Positions 11,059 through 45,059 of a stretch of 45,257 nucleotides of DNA are shown piece after piece. Source of the stretch: an uncultured Flavobacteriaceae bacterium (GTDB lineage: Bacteria; Bacteroidota; Bacteroidia; Flavobacteriales; Flavobacteriaceae); the NCBI GenBank assembly GCA_937937185.1, contig CALDCO010000178.1, positions 1-45,257 of the forward strand, read 5' to 3'. Within the stretch, counting starts at the first letter, position 1, and each line of letters starts with the position of its first letter. The notes beneath the pieces were generated by a model. The model saw only the letters and a program-made list of their open reading frames with translations. It was not told the origin of the DNA and did not search any database. The translations under genes and the position numbers were made by a program.

Positions 11059-11159
11059 CACACTAAAAAATAATTAACAAGTATCAAAGAGAGATTCGCG
11101 ATTATCGAAGGATAAGATTAAGACCTTAATTCATAATTACTCTCAAAAAACAATTTAAA

Positions 11160-11765
11160 ATGGCAAGATATACTGGTCCTAAAACTAAAATAGCTCGTAA
11201 ATTTGGCGAGGCTATATTTGGAGATGATAAAGCCTTTGAAAAAAGGAATTACCCTCCAGGTCAACACGGAAACAACAGAAGACGTGGTAAAAAATCTGAA
11301 TACGCAATCCAATTAATGGAGAAGCAAAAAGCAAAATACACCTATGGTATTTTAGAGCGTCAATTTAGAAACATGTTTAAAAAAGCAACAGCAGCACCTG
11401 GTATTACAGGTGAGGTTTTGTTACAATTGTGTGAATCGAGATTAGATAATGTGGTTTATAGAATGGGATTATCGCCTTCTCGTAGTGGGGCCAGACAATT
11501 GGTTTCGCACAGACACATTACCGTTAATGGAGAATTGGTAAATGTGCCTTCATATCAACTAAAAGCAGGAGATGTTGTTGCCGTAAGAGAAAAATCTAAA
11601 TCTCTTGAAGTTATAGATAGATCTTTATCTAACTCAAGCCAAATTTATGAATGGATTACATGGAATAATGATAAAAAAGAAGGAACGTATGTTTCTATTC
11701 CAGCTAGAATTCAGATCCCAGAAAAAATTAACGAGCAGTTCATCGTCGAATTATATTCTAAATAA
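11160..11765 (+). CDS. rpsD: 30S ribosomal protein S4
   Basis: S4 (201 aa) is a primary assembly protein of the 30S body. It has [17 protein letters not shown] and [22 protein letters not shown]. The S4 RNA-binding domain ([20 protein letters not shown]-like) spans roughly residues 95-155. The N-terminal zinc-type Cys cluster is absent. It lies 21 bp before rpoA, the alpha-operon arrangement. Confidence 0.97.
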
Positions 11766-11786
11766 TAACTGATACAAATCACAAAT

Positions 11787-12779
11787 ATGGCAGTATTTAA
11801 TTTTCAAAAGCCCGACAAAGTAATCATGATCGATTCAACCGATTTTGAAGGTAAGTTTGAATTTAGACCTTTAGAACCTGGTTATGGTTTAACCGTTGGA
11901 AATGCTCTTAGGAGAGTTTTATTATCTTCTTTAGAAGGGTTTGCAATAACATCAATAAGAATTGAAGGCGTAGATCATGAATTTTCTACAATTGCGGGTG
12001 TGGTAGAAGATGTCACTGAAATGATTCTTAATTTAAAACAAATGCGTTTCAAACGTCAAATAGAAGACGTAGACAATGAATCTGTTTCTATTTCTATCTC
12101 AGGACAGGAACAAATAACAGCAGGAGACTTTCAAAAATTTATTTCAGGGTTTCAAGTTTTAAATTCAGATTTAGTAATCTGTAACCTGGATCCTAAAGTA
12201 AATATAAATATGGAAATTTCTATTGAAAAAGGAAGAGGCTATGTTCCTGCAGAAGAGAATAAAAAGGCTTCAGCACCTATGGGAACCATCTTTACAGATT
12301 CAATTTATACGCCTATAAAGAATGTTAAATATCGTATTGAGAACTTTCGTGTAGAACAAAAAACAGATTACGAAAAATTAATTTTCGAAATTGTTTCAGA
12401 TGGTTCAATTACACCTCAAGATGCTTTAACAGAAGCAGCAAAAACATTAATTCATCACTTCATGCTATTCTCAGACGAGCGTATCACATTGGAAGCCGAT
12501 GAAATTGCACAAACTGAAACTTATGATGAAGAATCGCTTCATATGAGACAATTGCTTAAAACGAAGTTAGTAGATATGGATTTATCTGTACGTGCACTTA
12601 ATTGTTTAAAAGCAGCTGAAGTAGATACCTTAGGCGACTTGGTATCATTCAATAAAAACGATTTAATGAAGTTTCGTAATTTTGGTAAAAAATCTTTAAC
12701 AGAGCTTGAAGAGCTGGTTAATGTTAAAGGACTAAATTTCGGAATGGATTTATCAAAGTATAAATTAGATAAAGACTAA
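11787..12779 (+). CDS. rpoA: RNA polymerase alpha subunit
   Basis: The alpha subunit (330 aa) nucleates RNA polymerase assembly and contacts promoter DNA and activators. The N-terminal dimerisation domain contains [22 protein letters not shown]. The C-terminal domain (about residues 260-330) has [38 protein letters not shown], its helix-hairpin-helix. The gene lies between rpsD and rplQ as usual. A 141 bp hairpin-bearing gap follows. Confidence 0.98.
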
Positions 12780-12864
12780 TAAACTAAGATTGTATATTAA
12801 TGAATGATGACTTTTAAATTCATTCTAAAATTTACAGTCTTTTTTATTCCAAATAAAATTAACC

Positions 12865-12904
12865 CATCATATTTTGCTCCTTAAAAGAGTTGAGCAAGAT
12901 GATG
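12865..12904 (+). promoter_or_regulatory. hairpin in the rplQ leader
   Basis: CATCAT-att-TTGCTC...GAGCAA-g-ATGATG gives two paired 6 bp blocks around a ~13 nt loop. It ends 16 nt before the rplQ ATG. There is no T-run, so it is not a terminator; it could hinder ribosome access or mark a processing site. A second small hairpin (AATGAAT/ATTCATT) lies upstream near 12800. Confidence 0.5.
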
Positions 12905-12920
12905 ATTAAAACAAAATGTC

Positions 12921-13388
12921 ATGAGACACGGAAAGAAAGTAAACCATTTAGGGAGACAAACAGCGCATAGAAAAGCAATGTTAGCTAATATGGCATGTTC
13001 ATTAATAGAACATAAACGTATTAACACTACAGTAGCAAAAGCAAAAGCATTAAAACAGTTTGTTGAGCCAATGATTACAAAATCAAAAAGCGATACAACT
13101 CATAACAGGCGTATTGTTTTTAGTAAATTGAGACAAAAAGAAGCCGTTACTGAGTTATTTAGAGACATTGCATCAAAAGTAGGAGACCGTCCAGGAGGAT
13201 ACACTAGGATAATTAAATTAGGTAACCGTTTAGGTGATAATGCAGACATGGCAATGATAGAATTGGTTGATTATAACGAAATCTATAATGCAGATAAGGT
13301 TAAGAAGAAAACAACTCGTAGAAGTAGAAGAAGAGGAGGCTCTAAAACTGTAGTGACACCACCAGTAGCTTCCAATGAAGAAGAATAG
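12921..13388 (+). CDS. rplQ: 50S ribosomal protein L17
   Basis: L17 (155 aa) surrounds the exit tunnel. The core starts [25 protein letters not shown] and includes [31 protein letters not shown] basic-then-acidic C-terminal tail of about 30 residues ([11 protein letters not shown]...SNEEE) exceeds the E. coli length (127 aa). It is the last gene of the ribosomal operon, with an intrinsic terminator 30 bp downstream. Confidence 0.97.
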
Positions 13389-13417
13389 ATACTAGTTTAG
13401 TATTGATAATATTTAGA

Positions 13418-13447
13418 GGGTAAACTATTTTAGTTTACCCTTTTTTG
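13418..13447 (+). terminator. intrinsic terminator of the ribosomal operon
   Basis: GGGTAAACTA-ttt-TAGTTTACCC followed by TTTTTT forms a 10 bp stem with a U-tract, 30 bp after the rplQ stop. A close variant of this hairpin occurs again at 16355-16385, just before carA. Confidence 0.9.
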
Positions 13448-13462
13448 TTTATTAAACTTAAC

Positions 13463-13613
13463 TTAACGTGATTTCGACATAAGAAAATTTACGTCAGTCA
13501 GTGATTTTCTATAAAGCCCCTATTTCCGATACAATTTTTCTTCGTTTTCACTCTGAAAAATCACTCAATTTGACGGCTTTTCATTCTAAATCTTTAACTT
13601 GAACTCTCGTTAA
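13463..13613 (+). repeat. MITE-like element, copy 1 (inverted relative to copy 2)
   Basis: A 151 bp element running from TTAACGTGATTTCGAC to the reverse complement of a near-identical end (...TTGAACTCTCGTTAA). It thus has imperfect terminal inverted repeats. Internal blocks such as GAAAATTTACGTCAGTC, TTTTTCTTCGTTT and AAAAATCACTCAATTTGACG recur in reverse-complement orientation at 44847-45033. It has no coding capacity. Confidence 0.75.
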
Positions 13614-13873
13614 TTTATTAGAGCATAAAAGTGAATCTATTTTAACCTTTTTAAAAGGAAAAAATATTATTTTCAAATGCAGACAATGCTAAAAATAATG
13701 CCCTATTATAGTACACTATAAATGTTGATAAGGATTTGAAATATTTAATTATAAACATAATCTTTGTATTTTATCTAATTAATAGGGTTTTTTGTCAAAA
13801 AAAATATTCGAATTGTGAAATTATAGTTAATTTTATAAAAATTACTTAATTCAAAAAATAAATACCCTCAACA
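13614..13873 (+). other. remainder of the rplQ-protease gap (gap total 485 bp)
   Basis: Besides the terminator, the MITE-like element and the direct repeat (listed separately), this AT-rich region holds a short TTATTTTCAAA word also present upstream of carA. It also has the possible protease promoter around 13735-13766. I see no further gene. Confidence 0.6.
13712..13745. repeat. direct repeat, left copy, upstream of the T9SS metalloprotease
   Basis: A 34 bp stretch (TACACTATAAATGTTGATAA...) matches 16319-16352 with three mismatches in the same orientation. The pair brackets the metalloprotease gene. The left copy contains a TTTG (13735-13738) that may act as the -33 element of that gene's promoter, with an imperfect -7 (TAATCTTTG) at 13758-13766. 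Confidence 0.65.
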
Positions 13874-16081
13874 ATGAAGAACAATCAACCATTCGTAGCT
13901 CCAATTCTTGGAGTTTTGTTTACTTTTCTAGTAGGTATGATATCCGCTCAAAACGGAGTAACATACAATTTAGGCAATGAAGCCGATTTTTCTAAAACTC
14001 TACTGACTACTCAAAAAATAAGTTCTGATTTAGAGTTAAAAGTTTCCGAAAGTCAGAGTTATATGGCGAGAATAAACGTAAAAGACGTAATTTCTAATGA
14101 AGAGTACTTCGTTACAGGAGTACTAAAAAACGTAGAGAACGGTACGTTTTCTATTTCTAAAGCAAATGGCCTAATTGAAGGGCACATTTTACTTTCTGAC
14201 AAAGGATACCAATACACTCTAAATTCAAATCAAGAAGTGTTATTAAAACAAAAGGATCTTGGAGAATTAATATGCGTTGGTGTAGAAAAAGTTGGCGCAA
14301 ACAATGCAACTCCCGAAACTTCAGAACTTGTTATGGCTCCAATTCTTAACAGTTTGCCTGGTGCAACAGCTGTGGTTTATTTAGATTTTGATGGAGAAGT
14401 GGTTTCAGGCACCTCATGGGCAGGTGGAGCGACCATTAACGCAAGACCAGAAGGATATAGCGAGAATGAAATGAGAAGAATATGGGAATATGTAGCAGAA
14501 GATTTTAGTCCTTTTCAAGTAAACGTTACTACAGATAGAGCCGTATATAATAAGGCTCCTAAAAATAAAAGAATGATGACCATATTTACGACCACGACTA
14601 CCGCAGCTCCTGGTTCGGGAGGGGTAGCCTTTCTAAATTCTTTTTCTAGTAATAGAGATGATCCTTGTTGGGTATTTAATGGTCGGCCAGGAAGTATTAA
14701 AGCGGCAGGAGAAACGGCATCCCATGAAGTAGGTCACACAGTTGGACTAAGACACGATGGTCAAGGTTCTAATACCTACTATCAAGGTAACGGCGTATTT
14801 TGTCCAATAATGGGAGGTAATTTCAGAAACCCTGTTGGACATTGGAGTAAAGGAGAATATACCAATGCTAACCTGTTTGAAGATGATTTAGCGATTATTA
14901 CTAGAAGTAGAAATTTTGGTTACAAAAATGACGACCACGGGAATTCAAGAAATAACGCTACAAAATTGGTGATAAAAAATAATGGTTCTGTAGATGCTAG
15001 GGATAATAAGGGAGTTATTGAAAAAAGTAATGATAAAGACCTGTTTTCTTTCAACACAGAAGGCGGAGAAATTGATCTTAAATTCAAGCCAGCCTCTGCT
15101 CAGCCCAACTTGAATATTCAAGCTAGAATACTTGACTCTTCTGGGAAAGAAATAGCTAAAAATAACCCTAGAGGAGGGGATCTTAGTGCGGCTATTAAAA
15201 TGGATTTAAAACCCGGGACTTATTATGTTGAAATTGATGGAAAAGGTGAAGGAAATCAATCTAATGGGTATGCCGAGTATGGCTCGTTAGGGGTGTTTTC
15301 TATATCTGGCAAAATCGTATCTTCCTCCTCCTGCGGATCTGGGAATACTGCGACAGTAGATGCATCTAAAACAAAATATGACTATGATGTTGGGACGCCT
15401 TGTTCTCCTATAATGAACAATTGGGCTCAAATATCCGATAAAACTACTGGTGATATTAAATGGAATGTGGCTGTTAAATCTGGAGACAGAGGCGAATCTC
15501 AGGGCGTTAACAAAAATAATCAGGACTTTGTTTTTAGTGGTCGTAAAGCGGTACTTAGTCATAAACTAAGAAAAGGTTCTTGGGAAATTGTTATGAATAT
15601 GGGAGATGCTGGATTTCCTCATGACAATATGCGAGTTACTGCAGAAGGAATTATTATTGGAGACAACATTAACAGTGCTCGTGGAGAATTTCCTTATGTA
15701 ACAGGTACTGTAGACGTATCAGATGGAGAATTAAACATTGAGATTGAAGACCGAGGTGGGAACGATCCTAACTGGGTTTTAAATCGTTTGTCTATAGAGT
15801 ATAAAGGCGTATTAAGCGCAGAAACCAATGAGATTAATGACAAGTTTGTTTTATATCCTAACCCTGTAAAGGACATACTTAATCTTAACTTCTTAAGCTC
15901 TAAAACCAATACTAATAGGCTAGTTTACATATACGATACTATTGGAAAGCAATTGATGAAAAAAGAATTGTCTGCAGACAAAAATAGTATAGATGCTTCT
16001 GCACTACAGTCTGGTGTTTACTATTTAAAAGTAGTCGAGACAAATCGAGTTGTACAAACCGTACCATTTGTTAAGGATTAA
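13874..16081 (+). CDS. secreted metzincin-type zinc metalloprotease with T9SS sorting domain
   Basis: 735 aa. A signal peptide (hydrophobic PILGVLFTFLVGMISAQ) ends near residue 26. The catalytic motif HEVGHTVGLRHD (His284, Glu285, His288, Asp/His after the Gly) matches HExxHxxGxxH/D metzincins, followed by a Met-turn-like CPIMGG. Residues ~375-480 resemble a bacterial pre-peptidase C-terminal domain (NDKDLFSF...GTYYVEIDG). A Cys-containing beta region follows. The last ~75 residues are a type A T9SS sorting domain (LYPNPVKDILNL...YIYDTIGKQL...SGVYYLKV). The predicted product is an extracellular protease exported by Sec and then T9SS, whose PorU/PorV components are encoded in this window. It sits alone between rplQ and carA, bracketed by 34 bp direct repeats, which suggests insertion. 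The substrate is unknown. Confidence 0.88.
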   Translation: MKNNQPFVAPILGVLFTFLVGMISAQNGVTYNLGNEADFSKTLLTTQKISSDLELKVSESQSYMARINVKDVISNEEYFVTGVLKNVENGTFSISKANGLIEGHILLSDKGYQYTLNSNQEVLLKQKDLGELICVGVEKVGANNATPETSELVMAPILNSLPGATAVVYLDFDGEVVSGTSWAGGATINARPEGYSENEMRRIWEYVAEDFSPFQVNVTTDRAVYNKAPKNKRMMTIFTTTTTAAPGSGGVAFLNSFSSNRDDPCWVFNGRPGSIKAAGETASHEVGHTVGLRHDGQGSNTYYQGNGVFCPIMGGNFRNPVGHWSKGEYTNANLFEDDLAIITRSRNFGYKNDDHGNSRNNATKLVIKNNGSVDARDNKGVIEKSNDKDLFSFNTEGGEIDLKFKPASAQPNLNIQARILDSSGKEIAKNNPRGGDLSAAIKMDLKPGTYYVEIDGKGEGNQSNGYAEYGSLGVFSISGKIVSSSSCGSGNTATVDASKTKYDYDVGTPCSPIMNNWAQISDKTTGDIKWNVAVKSGDRGESQGVNKNNQDFVFSGRKAVLSHKLRKGSWEIVMNMGDAGFPHDNMRVTAEGIIIGDNINSARGEFPYVTGTVDVSDGELNIEIEDRGGNDPNWVLNRLSIEYKGVLSAETNEINDKFVLYPNPVKDILNLNFLSSKTNTNRLVYIYDTIGKQLMKKELSADKNSIDASALQSGVYYLKVVETNRVVQTVPFVKD

Positions 16082-16144
16082 TCTTAAACAGGTTAGTTGT
16101 AATAGTTCATATTTTTCTTATATATATTCTATTCGACCTCAAAT

Positions 16145-16177
16145 AAAAAACCTCTGTGATTACAGGGGTTTTTTTAT
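16145..16177 (+). terminator. intrinsic terminator after the metalloprotease
   Basis: AACCTCTG-tgatta-CAGGGGTT followed by TTTTT, an 8 bp stem with one G-U pair, 64 bp after the stop codon. Confidence 0.8.
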
Positions 16178-16318
16178 TTGACTAACCAAAAAGTATATGG
16201 ATAATGATATATTTTCCTCAAAAAATAGTCACTTCAACCTTAAATTTCTGAAGATTCTATTTTTACATTTAGTTTCAATAATATTTCAAAATTCATAGCT
16301 AAAGGAAAATCGAATAGA

Positions 16319-16352
16319 TACATTATAAATGTTAATAAGGATTTGAAACATT
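16319..16352. repeat. direct repeat, right copy, downstream of the T9SS metalloprotease
   Basis: TACATTATAAATGTTAATAA... matches 13712-13745 at 31 of 34 positions and runs directly into the second terminator-like hairpin. The rest of the 374 bp gap (16178-16318) is AT-rich with no ORF or clear motif. Confidence 0.65.
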
Positions 16353-16354
16353 AA

Positions 16355-16385
16355 GGATAAACTATTTTACTTTATCCTTTTTTTT
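16355..16385 (+). terminator. terminator-like hairpin upstream of carA, similar to the rplQ terminator
   Basis: GGATAAA-ctattttac-TTTATCC plus an eight-base T run. The loop and stem words (TAAACTATTTTA) match the rplQ terminator at 13418. It lies 71 bp before the carA start although no gene precedes it closely. It may be the ancestral rplQ-carA spacer duplicated when the protease gene was acquired. Confidence 0.7.
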
Positions 16386-16455
16386 ATAGAAATTTGCAAA
16401 ACTTTTATTTTCAAAATTTGTTTGCAACAATATTAGGAAGACTTACATAACATAA

Positions 16456-17565
16456 ATGATGAAATACCAAAAACTTAAAAAAGCAGTAATTTTATTAGCC
16501 GATGGCACTATTTTTCACGGCAAAGCTGTTGCTAAATCCGGAACTGCTTTTGGTGAAATTTGTTTTAATACGGGAATGACTGGTTATCAAGAGATTTTCA
16601 CAGACCCTTCCTATTATGGCCAGTTAATGGTAACAACAAATGCGCATATAGGTAATTATGGAGCTAATAATGAAGAAATAGAATCAGACTCTATTAAAAT
16701 TGCGGGTTTAATTTGTAAAAATTTTAGTTATGACTATTCTAGAGTAGATGCGGATGAATCGTTATTGTCTTTTTTAGAAAAAAGTAATTTATTCGCAATC
16801 TCTGATGTCGACACAAGAGCTTTAGTAAGTTATATTAGAGACAATGGCGCTATGAATGCTGTAATATCTACCGAAGTAGATCGTATAGAAAGCCTTAAAG
16901 AACAATTGGCTAAAGTGCCTAATATGGACGGCTTAGAATTGGCTTCTAAAGTCTCTACTAAAGCACCTTATTATGTTGGTAATGAAAAATCCTCCATTAA
17001 AATAGCGGCTTTAGATATTGGCATAAAAAAGAATATCCTTCGTAATTTAGCCAAGCGAGATGCCTATATAAAAGTGTTCCCTTATAATTCTACTTTCGAA
17101 GAATTAAACGAATGGAAACCAGATGGTTATTTTTTATCTAATGGTCCTGGAGATCCAGAACCTTTAGAAGCGGCTCAAAAATTAGCAAAACAAGTGATCT
17201 CTAAAGATTTACCGCTTTTTGGTATTTGTTTAGGGCATCAAGTTATTGCCTTGGCCAATGGCGTTTCAACTTACAAAATGCATAATGGACACCGCGGGAT
17301 TAATCACCCGGTAAAGAATCTAATAACAGGGAAAGGAGAAATTACTTCTCAAAATCATGGGTTTGCCGTTAATAGAGAAGAAACAGAAGCACATCCAGAT
17401 TTAGAAATAACTCATGTGCATTTAAATGATAATACTGTGGCAGGGATAAAGATGAAGACTAAAAATTGTTTTTCTGTTCAGTACCATCCAGAAGCAAGCC
17501 CGGGACCTCACGATTCCTCTTATTTGTTTGATGAGTTTATAAACAACATTAAAGCGAATAAATAG
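16456..17565 (+). CDS. carA: carbamoyl-phosphate synthase small (glutaminase) subunit
   Basis: 369 aa, family length. CarA hydrolyses glutamine and channels ammonia to CarB for carbamoyl phosphate, the precursor of arginine and pyrimidines. The N-terminal CPSase domain includes ADGTIFHGKAV and NTGMTGYQEIFTDPSYYGQ. The class I glutamine amidotransferase domain has the nucleophile motif LFGICLGHQ and the His/Glu pair in VQYHPEASPGPHD. carB is not adjacent. The start has two consecutive ATGs (16456 and 16459), and either may be used. Confidence 0.96.
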   Translation: MMKYQKLKKAVILLADGTIFHGKAVAKSGTAFGEICFNTGMTGYQEIFTDPSYYGQLMVTTNAHIGNYGANNEEIESDSIKIAGLICKNFSYDYSRVDADESLLSFLEKSNLFAISDVDTRALVSYIRDNGAMNAVISTEVDRIESLKEQLAKVPNMDGLELASKVSTKAPYYVGNEKSSIKIAALDIGIKKNILRNLAKRDAYIKVFPYNSTFEELNEWKPDGYFLSNGPGDPEPLEAAQKLAKQVISKDLPLFGICLGHQVIALANGVSTYKMHNGHRGINHPVKNLITGKGEITSQNHGFAVNREETEAHPDLEITHVHLNDNTVAGIKMKTKNCFSVQYHPEASPGPHDSSYLFDEFINNIKANK

Positions 17566-17706
17566 TTGAAATATATGTAATAAAGTGCTTGTTTTTTTGC
17601 CTTTATGCATTTACTATAACGTTATCGAAATTATTATGTTTAATTTTTCGAGGTATCATTACACAAAAGGGAATTAAACAGTAAATTTACAAATCTTAAA
17701 ATATAG

Positions 17707-19008
<1,302 letters not shown>

Positions 19009-19034
19009 TAAACTACTTAGGTATTAAATCATTT

Positions 19035-19070
19035 AAAATCTTGTCATAATTATATGTGGCAAGATTTTTT
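19035..19070 (+). terminator. intrinsic terminator after present eno
   Basis: AAAATCTTG...CAAGATTTT with a following T run (9 bp stem, ~16 nt loop, extendable by G-U). It lies 27 bp after the eno stop and inside the segment bracketed by the 25 bp repeats. It therefore probably arrived with the cassette. Confidence 0.8.
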
Positions 19071-19084
19071 GTTACTTTTATTTT

Positions 19085-20164
19085 GTGAATATAAAAGTTG
19101 CCTTTAATACATTCCTTCAATTAATCTATAAGACTTTAGCAGGTTTGTTATCTGTTGCTTCTGTTTTTTTAATTGCAGCTGTATTAATTGCTTATGGTTT
19201 TAATTTAGATGTCAATAAATATATTTTATTATTTTTTTTCAGTATTGCTTTAGTTCTACTGTTTTACATATGGAAAAATTATGATAAAATAAGTGATAAC
19301 GAAAATAAAAATAGTTCTTCTCATCTCATTAGAGAAATCATCAAATTAACAGTAAGCATAGTGATATTTTCCCTTATAGTGATGATCACAAATAATAATA
19401 CTAAAATACAGAATCATAATGATTTTGAGCAAACCGATGAGATGGTAACTCTAATGATTGACAGCTCTCAAACAACATCTAGAAAATATTATATTAGCAA
19501 TCAAGTTTGGAAGAGTTTTGATGGAGAAACTCACCGATTGCCATTTAAAGTGAATTATGATGACGTAATTAAGTCAAAAAAAAATAAAGAAGATTTTAAA
19601 ATAACTTATCGATTTTCTTGGGAAAATTTCTATAAAAATATAGCGGATAATGATCGTCCATTATTAGAAGATTTGGCAAAAACTTTCTTTAATTACCAAA
19701 AAAAAGAGAATATGAATAGAAGAGATTTTGCTGAATTAATGATCTCTGCTATTCAAGATATACCTTATAATTTGATATTAAGTGTTCCTTGTGAAAAAAC
19801 AGATGTAAAACCATGTTTTGGTAATGTGAAGTTAGGTATATATACTCCTGCAGAATTTATATCAACATTAAGCGGAGATTGCGATACAAGAACAGTTATA
19901 CTTTTTACGTTACTATCTAGATTTAATTATGATGTTGCTATTTTAAATAGCAAAAAATATAAACATTCAGTTTTAGGATTAAATATTCACTCTACAGGGA
20001 AATTCAAAACCCATAATAACAAGAAGTACTATTTTATTGAAACTACAGCAAAAGGCTGTCCTATTGGTTACCTTCATCAAGATGTATCAAATGTTAATTA
20101 TTGGGGTTTTGCCTTAATATATAATACAAAAATAAAACAATGGAACTATTCTACCTTGCATTAA
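19085..20164 (+). CDS. membrane-anchored transglutaminase-like protein
   Basis: 359 aa, GTG start (no in-frame ATG until beyond the third membrane segment). Three transmembrane segments lie at about residues 13-35, 40-60 and 85-105. The C-terminal part has a transglutaminase/cysteine-protease-like arrangement: Cys266 in SGDCDTRTV, His294 in KYKHSVLGL and an acidic Glu319 in YYFIETTA. The usual triad is Cys-His-Asp; here the third position looks like Glu. The topology after three segments should place the catalytic part on one side of the inner membrane, but the side is uncertain. It overlaps the next gene by 25 bp, so the two are co-translated. It is AT-rich and bracketed with its partner by a repeated eno 3' end, suggesting acquisition. 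I do not recognise a named family; the substrate is unknown. Confidence 0.7.
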   Translation: MNIKVAFNTFLQLIYKTLAGLLSVASVFLIAAVLIAYGFNLDVNKYILLFFFSIALVLLFYIWKNYDKISDNENKNSSSHLIREIIKLTVSIVIFSLIVMITNNNTKIQNHNDFEQTDEMVTLMIDSSQTTSRKYYISNQVWKSFDGETHRLPFKVNYDDVIKSKKNKEDFKITYRFSWENFYKNIADNDRPLLEDLAKTFFNYQKKENMNRRDFAELMISAIQDIPYNLILSVPCEKTDVKPCFGNVKLGIYTPAEFISTLSGDCDTRTVILFTLLSRFNYDVAILNSKKYKHSVLGLNIHSTGKFKTHNNKKYYFIETTAKGCPIGYLHQDVSNVNYWGFALIYNTKIKQWNYSTLH

Positions 20165-20652
20165 GTCAAATAATCATTTCAATTATTTTAGCAATTATTA
20201 TATTTTTTATTTCATATAAAGTTTTAATCAAAGTATTTAGACTTGAAGAAAATAAATTTGATAATGAAAACTTAGCACTAAGTATATTTTTTTCAGGAGT
20301 TATTTTTAGTATTGGTTATTTATTAAGCGGCATCATTCCGTCAATTATAAATGCTATTCAACTTATAGAAATTAATATAGAAGGGTATTTGTTTTTTGAA
20401 GTTTTTAAATATTCTTCAATTTGTTTGTTAGTAGGTTTTATAGCAGCTTCTACTATTCAGTTTTCTTCTTTCTTTTTAGTAAAAGTGCTTACAAAATATA
20501 TAAGAGAAGTTGAAGAATTAAAAAAGAATAATTTAGCAGTTTCAATACTATTAGTAAGTATTCTTATTTCAATTACTTTAATATGTAAAGATAGTTTGGT
20601 ATTTTTATTAGAAACTTTTTTACCTCAACCAGATATTATTCAATTCAATTAA
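20140..20652 (+). CDS. four-helix integral membrane protein, DUF350-like
   Basis: 170 aa with four hydrophobic segments (about residues 5-28, 48-68, 85-112, 130-152). Two internally related halves each contain the motif NLA-SI before a helix (DNENLALSIFFSGV and KNNLAVSILLVSI). This resembles the duplicated DUF350/YjfL (UPF0719) membrane fold. DUF350 function is not established. Its start lies inside the preceding transglutaminase-like gene, implying a paired function such as a membrane complex. Assignment to DUF350 is by pattern memory only. Confidence 0.6.
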   Translation: MELFYLALSQIIISIILAIIIFFISYKVLIKVFRLEENKFDNENLALSIFFSGVIFSIGYLLSGIIPSIINAIQLIEINIEGYLFFEVFKYSSICLLVGFIAASTIQFSSFFLVKVLTKYIREVEELKKNNLAVSILLVSILISITLICKDSLVFLLETFLPQPDIIQFN

Positions 20653-20668
20653 TTCGTAAATGAATACT

Positions 20669-20693
20669 TTACCCTAAAGAAAGAGCCTTTAAA
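20669..20693. repeat. att-like repeat: displaced eno 3' end (right)
   Basis: Matches the eno 3' end (18972-18996) at 24 of 25 positions. Read in the corresponding frame it encodes [10 protein letters not shown] and a stop, a plausible original enolase C-terminus. A strong terminator follows 33 bp later. This fits a remnant of the eno gene end pushed downstream by insertion of the cassette. Confidence 0.78.
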
Positions 20694-20725
20694 ATAGAAT
20701 AAAGAAAGGATTAGTATAAGCTTTT

Positions 20726-20761
20726 GGGGATCATTATCTTAATAATGATCCCTCTTTTTTT
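20726..20761 (+). terminator. intrinsic terminator, probably the ancestral eno terminator
   Basis: GGGATCATTAT-ctta-ATAATGATCCC, an 11 bp perfect stem with a 4 nt loop, followed by TCTTTTTTTT. It lies just after the displaced eno 3' end and would now terminate the two-gene cassette. Confidence 0.9.
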
Positions 20762-20865
20762 AAATCATTTTTCAAATTTTTACTTTGTTAAATCCAATGT
20801 TAACAAGCTTTATATATCGTTAGATATTTTGTAATTTAGCTATCCAAAAATTAAACACCATATAT

Positions 20866-22152
20866 ATGTCAGATACAGCTATTTTAGAGATTAAAGGCGA
20901 AAAACACGAGTTTCCTTTAATAGTAGGAACAGAGAATGAAATAGGAATAGATATAAAAACACTCAGAGGGGCTACCTTAGGAGTAACAACCATTGATCCA
21001 GGTTATAAAAACACAGGCTCTTGCCAAAGTGGGATCACATTTTTGGATGGAGAAAAAGGCATTTTGAGATATAGAGGTTATGCTATTGAAGATTTGGCAG
21101 ATAAAGCAGATTTTTTAGAGGTCGCTTATTTATTAATTTTTGGGGACTTACCATCGAAGGACCAACTCATTAAGTTTCATGCAGATATTAAAACGGAATC
21201 TGTTGTCGACGACGATGTAAAAAAGATATTAGACGCGTTTCCTAAATCGGCTCATCCTATGGGGGTTTTATCCTCTCTTACAAGTGCTTTAACGGCATTT
21301 AACCCAACTTCGGTAAATGTAGATTCAGAAGAAGACATGTATAAGTCTGTCGTAAAAATATTAGGAAAATTCCCCGTTTTAGTTGCTTGGACCATGCGTA
21401 AGAAAAAGGGTTTGCCATTAAACTATGGTAGTAATTCTTTAAATTATGTAGAGAATGTATTAAAAATGATGTTTGAAAAACCCAATGAAGAATACGTTCA
21501 AAACCCCATTTTAGTAAATGCGTTAGATAAATTATTAATTCTTCATGCAGACCACGAACAAAACTGTTCCACGTCTACGGTACGAATTGTAGGCTCATCG
21601 CACGCGGGCTTGTTTGCTTCACTTTCTGCTGGAATTTCAGCACTATGGGGCCCACTTCATGGTGGCGCTAACCAAGCTGTTTTAGAAATGCTTGAAGCGA
21701 TAAAAGACGATGGTGGAGATACTAAAAAATATATGGGTAAGGCTAAAGATAAGCAAGACCCTTTCCGTTTAATGGGTTTTGGGCATAGAGTTTACAAAAA
21801 TTTCGATCCTAGAGCAAAAATTATTAAAGTGGCGGCAGATGAAGTATTATCAGATTTAGGAGTTGAAGATCCAATTTTAGATATTGCTAAAGGATTAGAA
21901 AAAGAGGCATTACAAGATGAGTATTTTGTAAAACGTAAGCTGTATCCTAACGTCGATTTTTATTCGGGGATCATATACAGAGCTATGGGAATTCCTACTG
22001 AAATGTTTACCGTAATGTTTGCTTTAGGTCGCCTTCCTGGTTGGATTGCCCAATGGCGAGAAATGCGTTTACGAAAAGAGCCTATTGGTCGTCCAAGACA
22101 AATTTATACCGGAGAAAATTATAGAGCATTTAAAACCATTGATAAGCGATAA
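20866..22152 (+). CDS. gltA: citrate synthase
   Basis: 428 aa, type II length. It condenses acetyl-CoA and oxaloacetate to start the TCA cycle. Motifs seen are LHADHEQNCSTSTVRIVGSS (active-site His region), GPLHGGANQAVLEML and the signature GFGHRVYKNFDPRA. A C-terminal Arg-rich GRLPGWIAQWREM follows. It stands downstream of eno and its inserted cassette. PdhA/PdhC in the same window produce its substrate. Confidence 0.97.
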   Translation: MSDTAILEIKGEKHEFPLIVGTENEIGIDIKTLRGATLGVTTIDPGYKNTGSCQSGITFLDGEKGILRYRGYAIEDLADKADFLEVAYLLIFGDLPSKDQLIKFHADIKTESVVDDDVKKILDAFPKSAHPMGVLSSLTSALTAFNPTSVNVDSEEDMYKSVVKILGKFPVLVAWTMRKKKGLPLNYGSNSLNYVENVLKMMFEKPNEEYVQNPILVNALDKLLILHADHEQNCSTSTVRIVGSSHAGLFASLSAGISALWGPLHGGANQAVLEMLEAIKDDGGDTKKYMGKAKDKQDPFRLMGFGHRVYKNFDPRAKIIKVAADEVLSDLGVEDPILDIAKGLEKEALQDEYFVKRKLYPNVDFYSGIIYRAMGIPTEMFTVMFALGRLPGWIAQWREMRLRKEPIGRPRQIYTGENYRAFKTIDKR

Positions 22153-22174
22153 CACCAATAAATAAATTTAATAA

Positions 22175-22205
22175 GAAGCTTCATAAACCATTATGGAGCT
22201 TTTTT
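22175..22205 (+). terminator. intrinsic terminator after gltA
   Basis: AAGCTTCATAA-acca-TTATGGAGCTT followed by TTTTT, an 11 bp stem with one T-G pair. It lies 23 bp after the gltA stop and 29 bp before the next gene. Confidence 0.85.
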
Positions 22206-22233
22206 ATATCTGAAAAAAATATGATTATTTAAG

Positions 22234-23148
22234 ATGCTAAAGCTAAATGTTAAAAATGAAACGTCACGTTTACGAGCTGTAGTTTTAGGAACGGCAGTGA
22301 GTAATGGTCCAACACCAAAAGCTGAAGACTGTTACGATCCTAAAAGTAAATTACATGTATTAGCTGGTACTTATCCTCTAGAGAAGGATATGGTAAAAGA
22401 AATGGAAGCATTAGCAAACGTTTTTAAGAAGTATGGCGTAAGCGTCTTTAGACCAAAAATAATTAAAAATTACAATCAAATATTTTCTAGAGACATTGCT
22501 TTTGTTGTCGATAATAAATTCGTGAAAGCAAATATTTTACCAGATCGAAAACGTGAATATAATGCGATACAACATGTTATTGATGAAATAGACCCGATTA
22601 ATATTCTTACACTTCCTGAAGAATGTCATATAGAAGGTGGCGATGTGATGCCTTGGAACGACTATGTATTTGTAGGAACCTACTCCGGGAAAGACTATCC
22701 CGATTTTATTACCGCAAGAACAAACAAAGCCGCTGTAATTGCCCTGCAAGATCATTTTCCTAACAAAATAGTTAAATCTTTCGAACTAAGAAAGTCTAAT
22801 ACCAACCCTAAAGAAAATGCCTTGCATTTAGATTGTTGTTTTCAGCCAATAGGAACTCATAAAGCCATACTTCATAAAAATGGATTTTTATTAGAAGAGG
22901 ATTACAATTGGTTGGTTAATTATTTTGGAAAGGCGAATGTTTTTGAAATTAATAAAGAAGAAATGTACCATATGAATAGTAATATTTTTTCTATCTCAGA
23001 AAATATTATTATTTCAGAACGAAATTTTACAAGATTAAACACCTGGTTAAAAGCGCAAGGCTTTATTGTTGAAGAAGTGCCTTATGCCGAAATAGCGAAG
23101 CAAGAGGGTTTATTACGCTGTAGTACCTTACCGTTAATTCGAGATTAA
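22234..23148 (+). CDS. DDAH/arginine deiminase-like amidinohydrolase
   Basis: 304 aa of the guanidino-group-modifying (pentein) superfamily. Landmarks are FSRDIAFVVDNKF, EGGD at about residues 132-135, the catalytic-type His198 in HLDCCFQPIG and the nucleophile-type Cys296 in LLRCSTLPL. Members hydrolyse methylated arginines or arginine to citrulline, or transfer amidino groups; the exact substrate is not evident. It follows gltA after a terminator, so it probably has its own promoter. Its stop codon overlaps that of the convergent TonB receptor gene, with no terminator between them. Confidence 0.82.
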   Translation: MLKLNVKNETSRLRAVVLGTAVSNGPTPKAEDCYDPKSKLHVLAGTYPLEKDMVKEMEALANVFKKYGVSVFRPKIIKNYNQIFSRDIAFVVDNKFVKANILPDRKREYNAIQHVIDEIDPINILTLPEECHIEGGDVMPWNDYVFVGTYSGKDYPDFITARTNKAAVIALQDHFPNKIVKSFELRKSNTNPKENALHLDCCFQPIGTHKAILHKNGFLLEEDYNWLVNYFGKANVFEINKEEMYHMNSNIFSISENIIISERNFTRLNTWLKAQGFIVEEVPYAEIAKQEGLLRCSTLPLIRD

Positions 23149-25448
23149 AAACGAAGCTTATAACTTAAATTAGGCGTTATTCCTAAAGAATTATTATCAA
23201 TCTTAGAAATGGAATTGTCTTCGTTTAATAGATAATAGGTGTTAATTGTATTTTTTTGGTTTAGTAAGTTCCATACAGAGAGACCAATAGTGCTATTTAT
23301 AGATTTATTTAGTTTGAGTGAGTAGGTTGTTGAAAAATCGGCTCTAAGGTAATCTCTTAAATTTCTGCTATTGGGTAATTCAAAATTAATTTCATTATTT
23401 ACAACAGGATTTCTTTCATTAGGAATAGTTACCGGAATTCCCGAGTGCCAATTAATTCCTAAGGCAAATTTAAAATTATTTATAGAATAGGTGTTTGCGA
23501 AAGTTATGGCATGATTTATATTTAAAGAGTTTGGAAAACGATTGCCATTATTTAAAGCATTAAAAGTGTAATTGTTATTACTAAAAGAATAGCTTAACCA
23601 AGTAGTGGTGTTTTTAAACTGTTTGTTAATTAAAAAATCTATTCCTTTTACATCATATCTCCCTATTGCATTAACAAATTGAAATTGATTCTGAAAGCCT
23701 TGATTTCTTGTAGTAATCCCATTAACTTGTTTAAAGTAACCTTCTGCACTAATTAAGAGTTTGTTTTTATTATAATGAATACCAATTGAGGCTTGTTTAC
23801 TTTTTATAATGGGGTTTTGTGTGTTATCGGCCAATACCCAACGTCGCTTTTCAACCCCTAAAAAATCGTTTTGACGATCAATAATTTGAGAAGTCGTTTG
23901 GCTTTTAATTTCGGCTAAAACTTCTACTTTAAAATAATCTAAAAACCGCTGGTTAAAACTTAATCTAGGCTCTGTAAGGAAGGTGTTAAATTTAGGGATG
24001 TAGTTGCCTCTTAAGCCTGCTCTTAAATAACTATTTTTATTTTTCGAATGCCATTTAATTTCAGTGTAGGCAGAGTGATTTCTAAGTACTCTTTTTATAT
24101 TACTTCTAAAAACAGGGTTATTAACATCTTCCAGATTAGTAATACCCACCTCAAAAAACTGATAGCCACTTATCCAATTTAAAGCCTCTCCTAATTTATA
24201 ATTGGTTTGAAATTTAATTCCGGTATCTAATACTTCATTTTTTTGGATTAATCGTTGGTCATTAATCACATCGAAATTAATAGCGTCAAGTCGGTAATTA
24301 GATAAATAGAGTTGAAAATTAGTTTTAAAAGCATTAGACCATTCCCTGTTATATGATAATCCGGTAACTAAATTTTGCTGTTCAATACCACTATTTAAAG
24401 TGCTTGTGGTATTGGCGTTTTCATCACTTTCGGTATAATTAAGGGTGTTAAAGGTGTTTAAGAAATTAAATCTTATCTTATCTTTATTAGAAATATCGTA
24501 CAATAGTTTTCCGCCTAAATCGTAAAAATAAAAGGCTTCGTTTGTTGCAATCGTTCTATTATTTCTTGAACTATTGTTAATATCGGTGTCTTGAAAAACA
24601 CGTTTAAAGTATTGGTTATAAGTTGGGGTTTCAATAAAATCTGTCATCGAACGGCGAGCGGTTAATTGCAGTTCTAATTTTTTATTTAACGGTAATTTCG
24701 TGAACGCATCAAAATAAATAAGATTTAAGCCCGCACCAGTCGATATCGAATCATTTAAAGTACGATCAAGTTCGATATCTATAGTGCTAGATACACTTTC
24801 ACCATGCGATGCACTAGTGCCATTTTTAGACAATACCACTCTATTGGTTAAATAAGTACTAAAAGCAGAGATTAGACCAAAAAAATGACCGGATTGATAA
24901 ATTTTTATACCATCCCATAGAATTAAATTTTGGTCGTGTGTGCCCCCTCTAACATTAATATTAGAAATGGTTTCATTAGCACTTAAAACCCCTGGTACAG
25001 CCTGAATGGTTTGTAAAATATCGGGTTCGGTAAGTCCTGGAAGAATATTAAATTTTTCTGGCTTAATAATAATATTCCCATTGCTGTCTTTTAAGACACT
25101 TTGAGTTAAATAGTTAGACACTATAATTTCATCAAGTAGCTGAATGCTTGGTTGCGATTTTTTTTTTCTAATGGGTTTTATAGAAATGTAACGTTTGTCT
25201 AATATTTTAAATTCAACCTGTGTTTGCGTTTCTATATAACTAAGCTTATCTTTTAAGGAAAGATTGTTTGAAGGTGCTAGGCATTTTAAATCATTAATAG
25301 TACTATTCGCATAAGAAAAACGAACACGATGTTGTTCTTCTATGGCGTTTATTATTGAAATTAAAGATTGCTTTTCTTTTATCTGTGCATAGGTTGTGGT
25401 GCAAAAACTAAAAATTAATAGAAAAGCAACAACCTGCCTTTTAATCAC
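23145..25448 (-). CDS. TonB-dependent outer-membrane transducer with STN domain
   Basis: 767 aa. The signal peptide (VVAFLLIFSFCTTTYA) is followed by a secretin/TonB N-terminal short (STN) domain at about residues 22-92 (ISIINAIEEQHRVRFSY...). The STN domain is the signalling extension of FecA-type receptors. A plug domain then follows (INVRGGTHDQNLILWDG...), and the beta-barrel ends in the usual terminal Phe (SYKLRF). There is no carboxypeptidase-like domain and no adjacent SusD. It overlaps the upstream fecR-like gene by 8 bp and is therefore co-expressed with it. Together with the ECF sigma factor it forms a cell-surface signalling system. The ligand is unknown; iron chelate or another polyvalent ligand is possible. 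Confidence 0.88.
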   Translation of the reverse strand: MIKRQVVAFLLIFSFCTTTYAQIKEKQSLISIINAIEEQHRVRFSYANSTINDLKCLAPSNNLSLKDKLSYIETQTQVEFKILDKRYISIKPIRKKKSQPSIQLLDEIIVSNYLTQSVLKDSNGNIIIKPEKFNILPGLTEPDILQTIQAVPGVLSANETISNINVRGGTHDQNLILWDGIKIYQSGHFFGLISAFSTYLTNRVVLSKNGTSASHGESVSSTIDIELDRTLNDSISTGAGLNLIYFDAFTKLPLNKKLELQLTARRSMTDFIETPTYNQYFKRVFQDTDINNSSRNNRTIATNEAFYFYDLGGKLLYDISNKDKIRFNFLNTFNTLNYTESDENANTTSTLNSGIEQQNLVTGLSYNREWSNAFKTNFQLYLSNYRLDAINFDVINDQRLIQKNEVLDTGIKFQTNYKLGEALNWISGYQFFEVGITNLEDVNNPVFRSNIKRVLRNHSAYTEIKWHSKNKNSYLRAGLRGNYIPKFNTFLTEPRLSFNQRFLDYFKVEVLAEIKSQTTSQIIDRQNDFLGVEKRRWVLADNTQNPIIKSKQASIGIHYNKNKLLISAEGYFKQVNGITTRNQGFQNQFQFVNAIGRYDVKGIDFLINKQFKNTTTWLSYSFSNNNYTFNALNNGNRFPNSLNINHAITFANTYSINNFKFALGINWHSGIPVTIPNERNPVVNNEINFELPNSRNLRDYLRADFSTTYSLKLNKSINSTIGLSVWNLLNQKNTINTYYLLNEDNSISKIDNNSLGITPNLSYKLRF

Positions 25449-26355
25449 GCTTTAAAATTATTGTATTGCCTTTTTTTACGTAGGTTAATTGCAAGGGAGC
25501 AGTTATAGACTTTAAAGAAGTTTCGAGATTTGTATGAGAAAAACCACCAGTAAATAATTGATCTTTATCTACATTTATAGTAGCGATTTTAATATTGTAT
25601 TGCCTTTCCAATTCAGCAATAACTTCGCGGTAAGGAATACTATTAAAAATACTTTCGTTTTCTAACCAAAGCGGGCTTTTATAGTTCGTTTTATTTTGAG
25701 GGCTAATCTCATCTTTTAATACTAAAAAACGATTGCCAGGTTTAAGTTTTACCTCATTACCCTTATAAGTAACACCTACGAGACCTTCGTAGCAAACTAC
25801 TTCAAAATAATTTTCGCGCGTTTTTACATTAAACTCGGTACCATAAACAGTAATGATGCCGTGACTGGTATTCACGTTAAATGTTGCGCCTTTGGCCACA
25901 TTAAAAAACGCTTCGCCTTTAAGTGATACGTTACGATTGGTATCCCACTTTTTTTCACTAAAGGTTAGAGAAGATAAACTATTAAGATTAACGATAGAAT
26001 GATCGGGTAATTTTATTTCATCCTTTTGGGCAACCATAGTAGTAAAAGAAGATTCTGGATTATATGTAAATTTATAAATACCAAAGCAAATCACAAAGAT
26101 GGCCGCGGTTTTCGACAAAATGCTTAACCAGTTTTTAGAAATTTGACGTTTCTTAGATTGGATGGCTTTTTTAAGTGCTTTGAATTCAGCTTCACTACTA
26201 AATACAGGCGTTTCTAATGTTTCGGTATGCTTAGAAATTTTTGTTAGCGTTTCATAATCATCAAGCAATTTAAATGCTTCCAATTCTTCAGCATTTAAAT
26301 CATGATCTAACCATTTTTTTACTAAGTATTCTTTTTCCATTGTTTCCATAATCAA
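25441..26355 (-). CDS. FecR-type anti-sigma factor
   Basis: 304 aa as given; Met at residue 6 (MEKEYLVKKWLD) is an equally good start. An N-terminal cytoplasmic sigma-binding part has acidic/helical character. One membrane span lies at about residues 77-98 (ILSKTAAIFVICFGIYKFTY). A periplasmic FecR domain follows (VNLNSLSSLTFSEK...GTEFNVKTRENYFEVVCYEGLVGV), then a C-terminal STN-like domain (YREVIAELERQYNIKIATI) that should contact the TonB receptor. It would hold the ECF sigma factor inactive until the receptor signals. A motif shared with the poly-Asp gene lies immediately upstream, suggesting autoregulation. Confidence 0.9.
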   Translation of the reverse strand: MIMETMEKEYLVKKWLDHDLNAEELEAFKLLDDYETLTKISKHTETLETPVFSSEAEFKALKKAIQSKKRQISKNWLSILSKTAAIFVICFGIYKFTYNPESSFTTMVAQKDEIKLPDHSIVNLNSLSSLTFSEKKWDTNRNVSLKGEAFFNVAKGATFNVNTSHGIITVYGTEFNVKTRENYFEVVCYEGLVGVTYKGNEVKLKPGNRFLVLKDEISPQNKTNYKSPLWLENESIFNSIPYREVIAELERQYNIKIATINVDKDQLFTGGFSHTNLETSLKSITAPLQLTYVKKGNTIILKRD

Positions 26356-26388
26356 CTATATAACAACTAAAGGTCTAAAAAACCTACC
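26356..26388 (-). promoter_or_regulatory. predicted ECF sigma-dependent promoter for fecR-tonB
   Basis: On the minus strand GGTAGG (26388-26383), 16 nt, then TTGTTATAT. The same arrangement, GGTAGG-N16-TTGTTCTAT, precedes the divergent poly-Asp lipoprotein gene. Both motifs face their gene. Identical spacing between two different loci of one signalling cluster supports a shared ECF promoter; this is not tested. Confidence 0.6.
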
Positions 26389-26499
26389 TTTTGTAATCAT
26401 AAATTATATGATAAGATGTTATAAAAATAGGATTTCTAGAGTAATAAGCCGAATTAATGCTGCTCTTTTTAACATAATACTAAGATTTAAACCGTTAAT

Positions 26500-26536
26500 G
26501 CCATGTTATTTAGCTTAATATTGGCTAAACAATGGC
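26500..26536. promoter_or_regulatory. hairpin in the sigma-fecR spacer
   Basis: GCCATGTTATTTAGC-ttaatattg-GCTAAACAATGGC forms an imperfect ~13 bp stem in the 283 bp gap between the sigma gene and fecR. It is T-rich on the + side (CTTTTCTTTTTC). On the minus strand, where the operon is read, there is no U-tract, so it may be a processing site or a terminator for opposite-strand RNA. Confidence 0.4.
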
Positions 26537-26638
26537 TTTTCTTTTTCTTAAAAAACAGAAAAAAATAATGTTTAGTTGTAGGAGTTTAACCGTTTTAGTA
26601 TTGAAAAAAGTTTAAACCACTTCTTAAAAATAGTAATA

Positions 26639-27154
26639 CTATAGTTCATCAATGGTCTCTCTTAATTTTTTAAGCGCACCGTAAATTCGTTTTTCTACAG
26701 CTTTAGTGCTAATGCCTAATAACTCGCTAATTTCTTTAAATCGTTTGCCTTCAACTCGATTCATTAAAAAAGCTACCCGCTGTGCTTCAGTTAAATTACG
26801 AATAGCTGTATTTATTTTTAATTGATACTCTTTTTCTTCCATTAAAAATTCAGGGCTTTCAAAAGTATGAGATTTGGGCTTAGTTTCTTTAAATTTTAAA
26901 ACCACTTTTTGATGCTTCGTTTCATTTAGCATCATATTGTTAGCAGTAGTAAATAAAAAAGATTTTGCTTTTTGGGGGCTTATTTTTTCACAGTTTTCCC
27001 AGAGTTTAATAAAAGCATCTTGAACTTTGTCTCTAGGGTTCAAAGCATTTCCAAATTTATAATATAAAAAGTTATTTAAATCTTTTGAGTATTTTTTGAA
27101 AAGCGAAGCAAATAGGTGATCTTCACAAATGTTATCATGCAATGATTTGCTCAT
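26639..27154 (-). CDS. ECF-type RNA polymerase sigma factor (FecI-like)
   Basis: 171 aa, typical ECF length. Region 2 is seen as KDLNNFLYYKFGNALNPRDKVQDAFIKLWENC. Region 4 is seen as LTEAQRVAFLMNRVEGKRFKEISELLGISTKAVEKRIYGALKKLRETI, the usual helix-turn-helix in FecI-like factors of Bacteroidota. It lies upstream of the FecR and TonB receptor genes, and divergent from the poly-Asp lipoprotein gene. It is expected to be released by FecR on receptor signalling and to transcribe the GGTAGG-N16-TTGTT promoters. Confidence 0.93.
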   Translation of the reverse strand: MSKSLHDNICEDHLFASLFKKYSKDLNNFLYYKFGNALNPRDKVQDAFIKLWENCEKISPQKAKSFLFTTANNMMLNETKHQKVVLKFKETKPKSHTFESPEFLMEEKEYQLKINTAIRNLTEAQRVAFLMNRVEGKRFKEISELLGISTKAVEKRIYGALKKLRETIDEL

Positions 27155-27199
27155 AAAATAAAATTAATATCTGTTAAAACTAAAAAAATTAAATTTAAT

Positions 27200-27230
27200 G
27201 GTAGGAGTTTTTAGTTTGTAATTGTTCTAT
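27200..27230 (+). promoter_or_regulatory. predicted ECF sigma-dependent promoter of the poly-Asp lipoprotein gene
   Basis: GGTAGG (27200-27205), 16 nt, then TTGTTCTAT (27222-27230), facing the lipoprotein gene 71 bp downstream. It is equal in spacing and nearly equal in sequence to the motif before fecR on the opposite strand. It links the lipoprotein to the sigma/FecR/TonB system. Confidence 0.6.
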
Positions 27231-27301
27231 TTATAGGAACGCATCATAAACGATTGTTGTGCTCTAAAGAATATTATTTATTAATCCAAAAATAGTTTAA
27301 A

Positions 27302-28789
<1,488 letters not shown>

Positions 28790-28898
28790 ATTATGCTAGT
28801 CCCCTTATATTAATGCTAAATAAAAAGCAAAATAGATTAATTAACGGTTTTAATTTTTAGTCATTTTACAAACCAGAGTATTGTTGCTTTTATTTGCT

Positions 28899-28932
28899 AA
28901 AAACGCTATCAAAATTTGATAGCGTTTTTTTT
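28899..28932 (+). terminator. intrinsic terminator after the poly-Asp lipoprotein gene
   Basis: AAAACGCTATCAAA-ATTTGATAGCGTTTT plus further T residues, a strong perfect stem with minimal loop, 110 bp after the stop. The rest of the 310 bp gap before ffh is AT-rich with one promoter-like site. Confidence 0.9.
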
Positions 28933-29066
28933 ATGCTATTATTTTTAGAATGGTACTTTTAAAGTTAAAATGCTACAAGCTACTTAGTATTAATAATGCC
29001 ATGCAAAACCTACAAGAGAAGCATTTTAAACATTGTATTTAAGTACAGAAAAACAAAATATTTCTT

Positions 29067-29074
29067 TACTTTTG
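29067..29074 (+). promoter_or_regulatory. predicted -7 promoter element of ffh
   Basis: TACTTTTG matches the Bacteroidota -7 consensus TAnnTTTG, 25 bp before the ffh ATG, giving a very short leader. No clear -33 TTG is at the right distance. Confidence 0.45.
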
Positions 29075-29099
29075 TGTCCTTAAAAATGCACAAAGAGCC

Positions 29100-30428: not shown

Positions 30429-30581
30429 GATTAAAAACTAAAAAAATGAAGCCTCATCGAGCCTTTCGACTGTCGCTCAAGACTAGCTAAATTCGAGAAG
30501 GATTAAATATTAAGACGATTCAAAATAGGTCTCGTTTCGAGACTTTGGGAGCGTCGACCAGACATAAAACACACTCTAAGA
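30429..30581. repeat. palindromic intergenic sequence between ffh and folD
   Basis: This gap contains GTCTCG-ttt-CGAGAC (30529-30543), a perfect 6 bp hairpin. It also contains TTTCGACTGTCGCTC and GGAGCGTCGACC, which are partly complementary. GC content is clearly above the surroundings. It resembles short dispersed TCGA-rich intergenic repeats of flavobacterial genomes; only one copy is in the window. Confidence 0.45.
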
Positions 30582-40201: not shown

Positions 40202-40319
40202 ATAAAAATTATATTTGTTAAAAATAATAAATAGAACAAACGTTAACTATTTAGCTTAAATAATTAAAAATAGTATAGGCGAATTACTTTTAACTCAAAA
40301 TAAAAATCACACGTTACGT

Positions 40320-41570: not shown

Positions 41571-41594
41571 AAAACATATCAAATAAAGAATACA

Positions 41595-41623
41595 AAAAAC
41601 TATTGCAGCGCAATAGTTTTTTT
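41595..41623 (+). terminator. intrinsic terminator after porV
   Basis: AAAAACTATTG-cagc-GCAATAGTTTTT plus T residues, an 11 bp stem, 25 bp after the porV stop. The remaining ~250 bp to the pdhA promoter-like site is AT-rich with no ORF or motif that I can support. Confidence 0.9.
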
Positions 41624-41874
41624 GTTTATAATGAAGTGGTTTAAACACTTTTTAATTGTGATGCTAATGCAAGTTCTGATTTAAAATGGGATGATTAACA
41701 AAATAAAACAAAAGTTTAAATATCGGAATTTGTTTTACAAGGACCAGAATTGAAGGATTCTATCTTAATTCTCTACTAACTTTTTTAGAATTAACTCAAT
41801 CGTTTTCGTTAAAAATTAAATGATTTTAAATGGTATTTAACGAATTTCAATTTTATAGTTACTAACTAATGTAT

Positions 41875-41882
41875 TACTTTTG
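41875..41882 (+). promoter_or_regulatory. predicted -7 promoter element of pdhA
   Basis: TACTTTTG fits TAnnTTTG, 27 bp before the ATG at 41910. The track's TTG start at 41880 overlaps this element and would lie upstream of the transcript start, supporting the ATG. Confidence 0.5.
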
Positions 41883-41909
41883 TTATTCGTTTTTAAAAGT
41901 AATTTGTTA

Positions 41910-42908: not shown

Positions 42909-42911
42909 GCT

Positions 42912-44829: not shown

Positions 44830-44846
44830 TATCTTTAGAGTCTAAA

Positions 44847-45033
44847 TTACCGTGAGTTCGACCTAAGGATTTAGAATGAAAAAGCCGTCAAATTGAGTGA
44901 TTTTTCAAAGAGAAACGAAGAAAAATGGTATCGAAATTAGGCTTTTGATTGAAAATTTATTGGTCTTCGATACAATTTTGTATCGAAAATCACTCGGACT
45001 GACGTAAATTTTCCTGTGTCGAACTCACGTTAA
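44847..45033 (-). repeat. MITE-like element, copy 2 (inverted relative to copy 1)
   Basis: 187 bp. It runs from TTACCGTGAGTTCGAC to GTCGAACTCACGTTAA, giving near-perfect 16 bp terminal inverted repeats. Its reverse complement aligns with 13463-13613 along the whole length apart from an extra internal segment. That segment includes TTCGATACAA-tt-TTGTATCGAA (44966-44987), a perfect 10 bp dyad. It has no coding capacity and ends 26 bp before the next gene, so it must lie within that gene's promoter region. Confidence 0.78.
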
Positions 45034-45059
45034 ATTAAGAGATTTAAAACAACTTACCA

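Follow-up and report, generated by a model that had tools for sequence, protein, structure and literature searches.

An uncultured member of the Flavobacteriaceae carries, in a stretch of 45,257 bp (the window), two similar segments that lie in opposite orientation about 31 kb apart. What kind of element they belong to, what agent moved them, and whether the pair has inverted the DNA between them are the questions that this locus raises. An earlier note on the sequence had placed the segments at 13463-13613 and 44847-45033, and had read them as a MITE or other non-autonomous palindromic element. It is very probable that the two are copies of a new IS982-type MITE family, apparently orphaned, with a REP-like interior nested between its ends, and that the family was moved by IS982 in the past.

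The window copies and their family in the genome

The two segments, one inverted relative to the other, can be aligned over their whole length with a likeness of about 80% and a large gap, and the local alignment score of 69 (at most 12.5 across 300 shuffles) bears out the inverted pair that had been noted. Their positions stand, except that 3 bp at either extremity are target-site duplication and lie outside the element. The ends, ACGTGAG...CTCACGT, were set by a profile of 181 positions built from 20 copies, and the terminal inverted repeats that had been described are present, 19 bp each. The features are as follows.

13459..13465, no strand: decayed target-site duplication of copy 1, TAACTTA, one mismatch to 13611-13617
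13466..13610 (+): MITE copy 1, 145 bp, with an internal deletion; profile match 95.8 bits
13611..13617, no strand: decayed target-site duplication of copy 1, TAATTTA
13618..13745 (+): remnant of a 3' gene end beside copy 1, the 5' part missing; the gene is intact at this site in the congeners G001 and G002 (sequences read by eye)
44843..44849, no strand: target-site duplication of copy 2, low-coordinate side, TAAATTA, identical to 45031-45037
44850..45030 (-): MITE copy 2, 181 bp, full length; 181-position profile match at 44851-45030, 205.9 bits
44850..44868 (+): the other terminal inverted repeat of copy 2, CCGTGAGTTCGACCTAAGG
44887..44904 (+): second core unit of copy 2, inverted arm A, 3 mismatches
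44922..44938 (+): second core unit of copy 2, inverted arm B, 24 bp past the first arm B and with 4 mismatches
44963..44979 (-): core unit arm B of copy 2, AAAATTGTATCGAAGAC, 2 mismatches
44986..45003 (-): core unit arm A of copy 2, GTCAGTCCGAGTGATTTT, 1 mismatch to the family-wide arm
45012..45030 (-): terminal inverted repeat of copy 2, ACGTGAGTTCGACACAGGA, matching IS982 ends
45031..45037, no strand: target-site duplication of copy 2, high-coordinate side, TAAATTA, identical to 44843-44849

Copy 1 is a decayed copy. The element is non-coding, as had been held: there is no transposase ORF, and the longest ORF wholly within a window copy is 36 aa. Copy 1 has the gene for ribosomal protein L17 on one side and, on the other, a gene for a secreted metallopeptidase that is reprolysin-like; copy 2 is flanked by a gene for a 2-oxoacid dehydrogenase E2 and by the first part of a gene that is cut off at the edge of the window, whose 66 visible residues have no Pfam match. 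The description of both copies as next to peptidase genes is therefore right for copy 1 and wrong for copy 2. The suspicion that such neighbours are a coincidence was sound, because the genome has about 100 copies. Elsewhere in the window, the sole Rfam match is an S4-Flavobacteria ribosomal protein leader at 11100-11138 (+) (RF03141, 46.8 bits), and imperfect direct repeats spaced about 345-372 bp apart occupy 27492-28537, inside the ORF at 27302-28789.

A search of the source genome for a 27-mer core with up to three mismatches gives 52 forward and 48 reverse matches, and none with the reversed control. A whole-genome search gives at least 42 matches at E<=1e-3, with the best 40 of 184 candidates scored. 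The window pair is thus two of about 100 copies, not the only two. This count is a lower bound, because many contigs of the source assembly (G000, a draft of 362 contigs and 96% completeness from which repeats may have been lost) stop inside or just past a copy. Most copies are 145-184 bp long, and their identity to the consensus is 86-97% (median 94%). The target-site duplications that the earlier note had suggested looking for are found, 6-8 bp long and of the TAAATTA type. They are exact over at least 6 bp in 30 of the 63 copies with both ends, against an expected mean of 4.3 and maximum of 12 from 2000 re-pairings of left and right flanks, a control that retains the shared TAAATTA/TAATTTA target preference. 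When the flanks are joined, one of 42 copies is seen to interrupt an ORF, as against 80% of random positions. The element has no match in plasmid and phage collections.

Six variants are longer, at about 360-690 bp; they have one end region and the opposite terminus in common. They are on G000 contigs C245, C317, C46, C79, C64, and C243 (L098, L150, L140, L079, L075, and L096), and an extra internal stretch, AGTTTGACGTAAAATTTGAAGTGAAG, is common to several of them.

Empty sites are found in relatives. At the site of copy 2, the flanking terminator and the start of the downstream gene are both present in G001 and the element is absent; because the intergenic flank has diverged, the empty site is not base-precise. 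Copy 1 is absent at its site in G001 and G002, both of which, read by eye, carry a gene intact there; in the window only the 3' end of that gene is left, adjoining the element. The outcome that the earlier note had set against its own reading, two copies only and no empty sites, did not occur. The element family of G001 has a mean identity of 87% within that genome and of only about 70% to copy 2, which indicates that each species amplified its own version. From these identities we infer that amplification took place separately once the species had split, with no activity in the very recent past.

IS982-type ends and the candidate mover

Elements of the IS982 family are about 1 kb long, their ends begin with AC, and their target duplications are variable, often about 7 bp (PMC7335449). 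The window element agrees with the family data in its duplications of 6-8 bp and its AC-starting ends (ACGTGAG), and the IS982 transposase of other genera matches the family model NF033520. Having no transposase gene, however, it is a passenger and not a member of the family, and the element as an IS982 insertion sequence proper was rejected for lack of a transposase ORF.

A transposase with matching ends, another search that had been suggested, exists in other genera. Intact IS982 elements of about 1020 bp in G061, G169, G296, and G323 have the MITE's end on both sides and duplications of 6-8 bp of the TA...TA type (TAAATA in G061, TAATTA twice in G296, TAAATA and TAGATTTA in G323, TAAATA in G169). 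Two complete IS982 transposases of 298-301 aa score 259 and 267 bits against NF033520 (cut-off 130). The likeness between MITE and IS982 is confined to the terminal 13-17 bp of each end. In the congener G002, the identical 21-bp end, TTAACGTGAGTTCGACATAAG, is found at exactly two places, one of them next to a transposase fragment (PF13612, 8.9e-66; NF033520 IS982, 211 bits, cut-off 130). A close homologue is present in 17 of 400 genomes sampled from Flavobacteriaceae, several of these being the complete elements of about 1020 bp. In the source genome, protein and PF13612 searches of the draft assembly find no IS982 transposase, and the control genomes are positive. The MITE family thus appears to be immobile and orphaned.

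The same IS982-type ends also enclose unrelated interiors in gene-less elements of 248 bp (G412), 214 bp (G205), 500 bp (G274), and 241 bp (G375). The ends are therefore the mobile unit and suffice for mobility. Same-ended MITE families are seen in several genera: G412 (L286, L288), G205 (L289-L291), G274 (L226), G375 (L224, L245), and G378 (L293).

The MITE reading, in sum, is supported by copy number, duplications, an empty site, and a transposase family with matching ends. An IS982-family transposase, acting in trans, would recognize the two 19-bp terminal inverted repeats and cut out or copy the element, which would then be inserted at AT-rich, TAAATTA/TAATTTA-like intergenic targets with duplication of 6-8 bp. 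Such a transposase probably moved these very copies. The rise to about 100 copies would have followed the split from the sequenced congener, and the family would now be immobile and decaying. The interior does not derive from the insertion sequence; it is a dispersed REP-like inverted pair, which would have been taken up between IS982 ends.

A close parallel is MITECca01 of Cardinium cOegib, an IS982-derived MITE of about 240 bp and 169 copies (PMC9769881). It too is gene-less and mostly intergenic, has IS982-like ends, and represents a lineage-specific burst within Bacteroidota. The genome of cOegib, however, contains its parental ISCca4 in intact form, and parent and MITE have a short sequence inside the ends in common (PMC9769881), whereas here no IS982 gene is detected. 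The ends and interior also differ, the window interior being the dispersed REP-like pair.

The interior and the GIY-YIG genes of some related pairs

The interior is an inverted pair of units, each with an arm A (GTCAGTTCGAGTGATTTT) and an arm B (AAAATTGTATCGAGAAC), in the order A-B-24 bp-B'-A'. In copy 2 the arms A, B, B', and A' have 1, 2, 4, and 3 mismatches. Shuffled copies reach 5 mismatches for A and 2-4 for B at best, so it is the A arms and the order that carry the evidence. With at most one mismatch, the A arm is present in 139 of 400 related genomes, the IS982-type ends being absent in most cases, and the reversed control is never found. Sufficient flank is available for 58 distinct pairs. 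Of these, 11 (some from the source genome) have IS982-type ends on both sides, 10 have another end, CCCGTTGTGCATTT, on both sides and 5 on one side, and 32 have neither; the chance per side is about 1% for the IS982-type end and about 0.4% for the CCCGTTGTGCATTT end. In Aquimarina records the IS982 end is followed by the core. The second, unrelated inverted-repeat shell around the core is seen in L042, L051, L052, L296, L319, L330, L342, L347, L358, and others.

The unit begins with (C)GTCAG and ends with CGAGAAC. It recalls the CGTC-tagged REPs described from Bacteroidetes among other phyla, which are defined by a CGTC tag, a stem of 8-9 bp, a short loop, and a CCA tail, and which are reported without a dedicated transposase (PMC3733652). 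The likeness lies in short palindromic units, mostly in inverted dimers, in intergenic DNA, and in an arm that is often preceded by C to give CGTC; the tag is present in copies of the source genome, G001, and Aquimarina, but not in all genera. Unlike those REPs (PMC3733652), some pairs here enclose a GIY-YIG gene, and the pairs of the source genome ride inside IS982-type ends. REPINs with their RAYTs resemble the core in their inverted short units, short spacer, and many copies, a few of which have a nuclease gene between or beside them. They differ in that the GTAG tag is absent here and the adjacent gene that is found is GIY-YIG; the core as a RAYT-type REPIN is not supported by the tag. When the core arm strings were searched as DNA text in the literature, the matches listed, 15 of 71, look like chance.

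In 66 of 69 A-B-B'-A' pairs that were read, the spacer is 4-44 bp. In the other three it is 309, 316, and 339 bp, and all three enclose a GIY-YIG gene of 97-98 aa (PF01541, 1e-13 to 1e-15) between the units (L294:1547-1997, L305:1501-1899, and L315:1545-1965, from genomes G280, G189, and G028). Three more cores, in L300, L309, and L326, have an adjoining GIY-YIG gene, that of L309 split over two frames. Of about 870 kb, every stretch of which was chosen for holding the core, about 10% lies no more than 300 bp from a core, and this fraction contains six of the seven GIY-YIG genes (binomial p ~5e-6). Only one more adjacent gene was found in 40 further 20-kb windows, which means that most core sites are without one. 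None was seen in the stretches examined from the source genome. A search of one literature library found no paper linking CGTC-type REPs to GIY-YIG genes.

These observations make it possible, though we stop somewhat short of calling it probable, that the interior belongs, as a form without a gene, to a mobile system of its own, and that the autonomous form of this system has the 97-98 aa GIY-YIG gene between its units. The window element would then be a nested chimera, and GIY-YIG would be the missing partner of the flavobacterial CGTC-type REPs.

Alternative explanations and the 31-kb interval

The wide dispersal of the core raises the question of whether it spreads by its own means, in a REP- or REPIN-like manner and perhaps with a GIY-YIG nuclease, the IS982-like ends being incidental. 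Such a course would fit the presence of the arm in 139 of 400 related genomes, where these ends are mostly lacking, and the GIY-YIG gene that replaces the spacer in three core pairs. In the source genome, however, the repeat unit stops at the IS982-type repeats, with the duplications directly outside; the same ends are found on unrelated interiors (G412, G205, and G274), and the source-genome stretches examined show no GIY-YIG gene. We consider this explanation improbable. A structured RNA or a shared regulatory element (leader, terminator, or sRNA) kept by selection is less probable still. No Rfam family matches the element, 65 aligned copies yield next to no consensus structure (one pair position is changed on both sides), the strands are near-equal (52 vs 48) with unrelated gene neighbours, and the element is absent at the same sites in congeners. 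The intergenic location of the copies and the single-strand fold of copy 2 (z = -5.9) are what such an RNA would predict, but the fold of copy 1 is not better than chance (z = -1.5), and a terminator-like site was not found at copy 2.

The earlier note had also suggested that the two copies could mediate inversion of the 31 kb between them, and this is not supported. The flanking genes of copy 1 are adjacent and in the same order in G001 contig C67 (window 11160-30430), as are those of copy 2 in contig C16 (window 40200-45257). As both junctions are collinear with G001, neither is an inversion breakpoint relative to it. The copies are indeed inverted, but their likeness is only about 80%, their alignment contains a large gap, and about 100 other copies are equally available. 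A role of this pair as a site of inversion is therefore very unlikely. Recombination inside the element would fit what is seen at other copies, where one flank is shared. G000:C290:4386-4789 matches window 44850-45257 with 99% identity over 200 bp of the right flank of copy 2, its left flank differs, and its element looks chimeric. Four more contig pairs share one flank, the identity decaying across the element (L135/L143, L097/L130, L131/L134, and L138/L142). The sharing in the five pairs, read from the contigs, may reflect ectopic recombination, strain mixture, or misassembly.

With the IS982-type MITE preferred over these alternatives, the family is a clear case of such a MITE reaching about 100 copies and then apparently losing its partner, and the genome concerned is free-standing rather than that of an endosymbiont. 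The capture of a single dispersed palindrome by two unrelated shells of terminal inverted repeats, in different genera, suggests that the palindrome makes some contribution of its own. With GIY-YIG genes present in some palindromes, the published question of whether an enzyme moves CGTC-type REPs, and which one, becomes directly testable.
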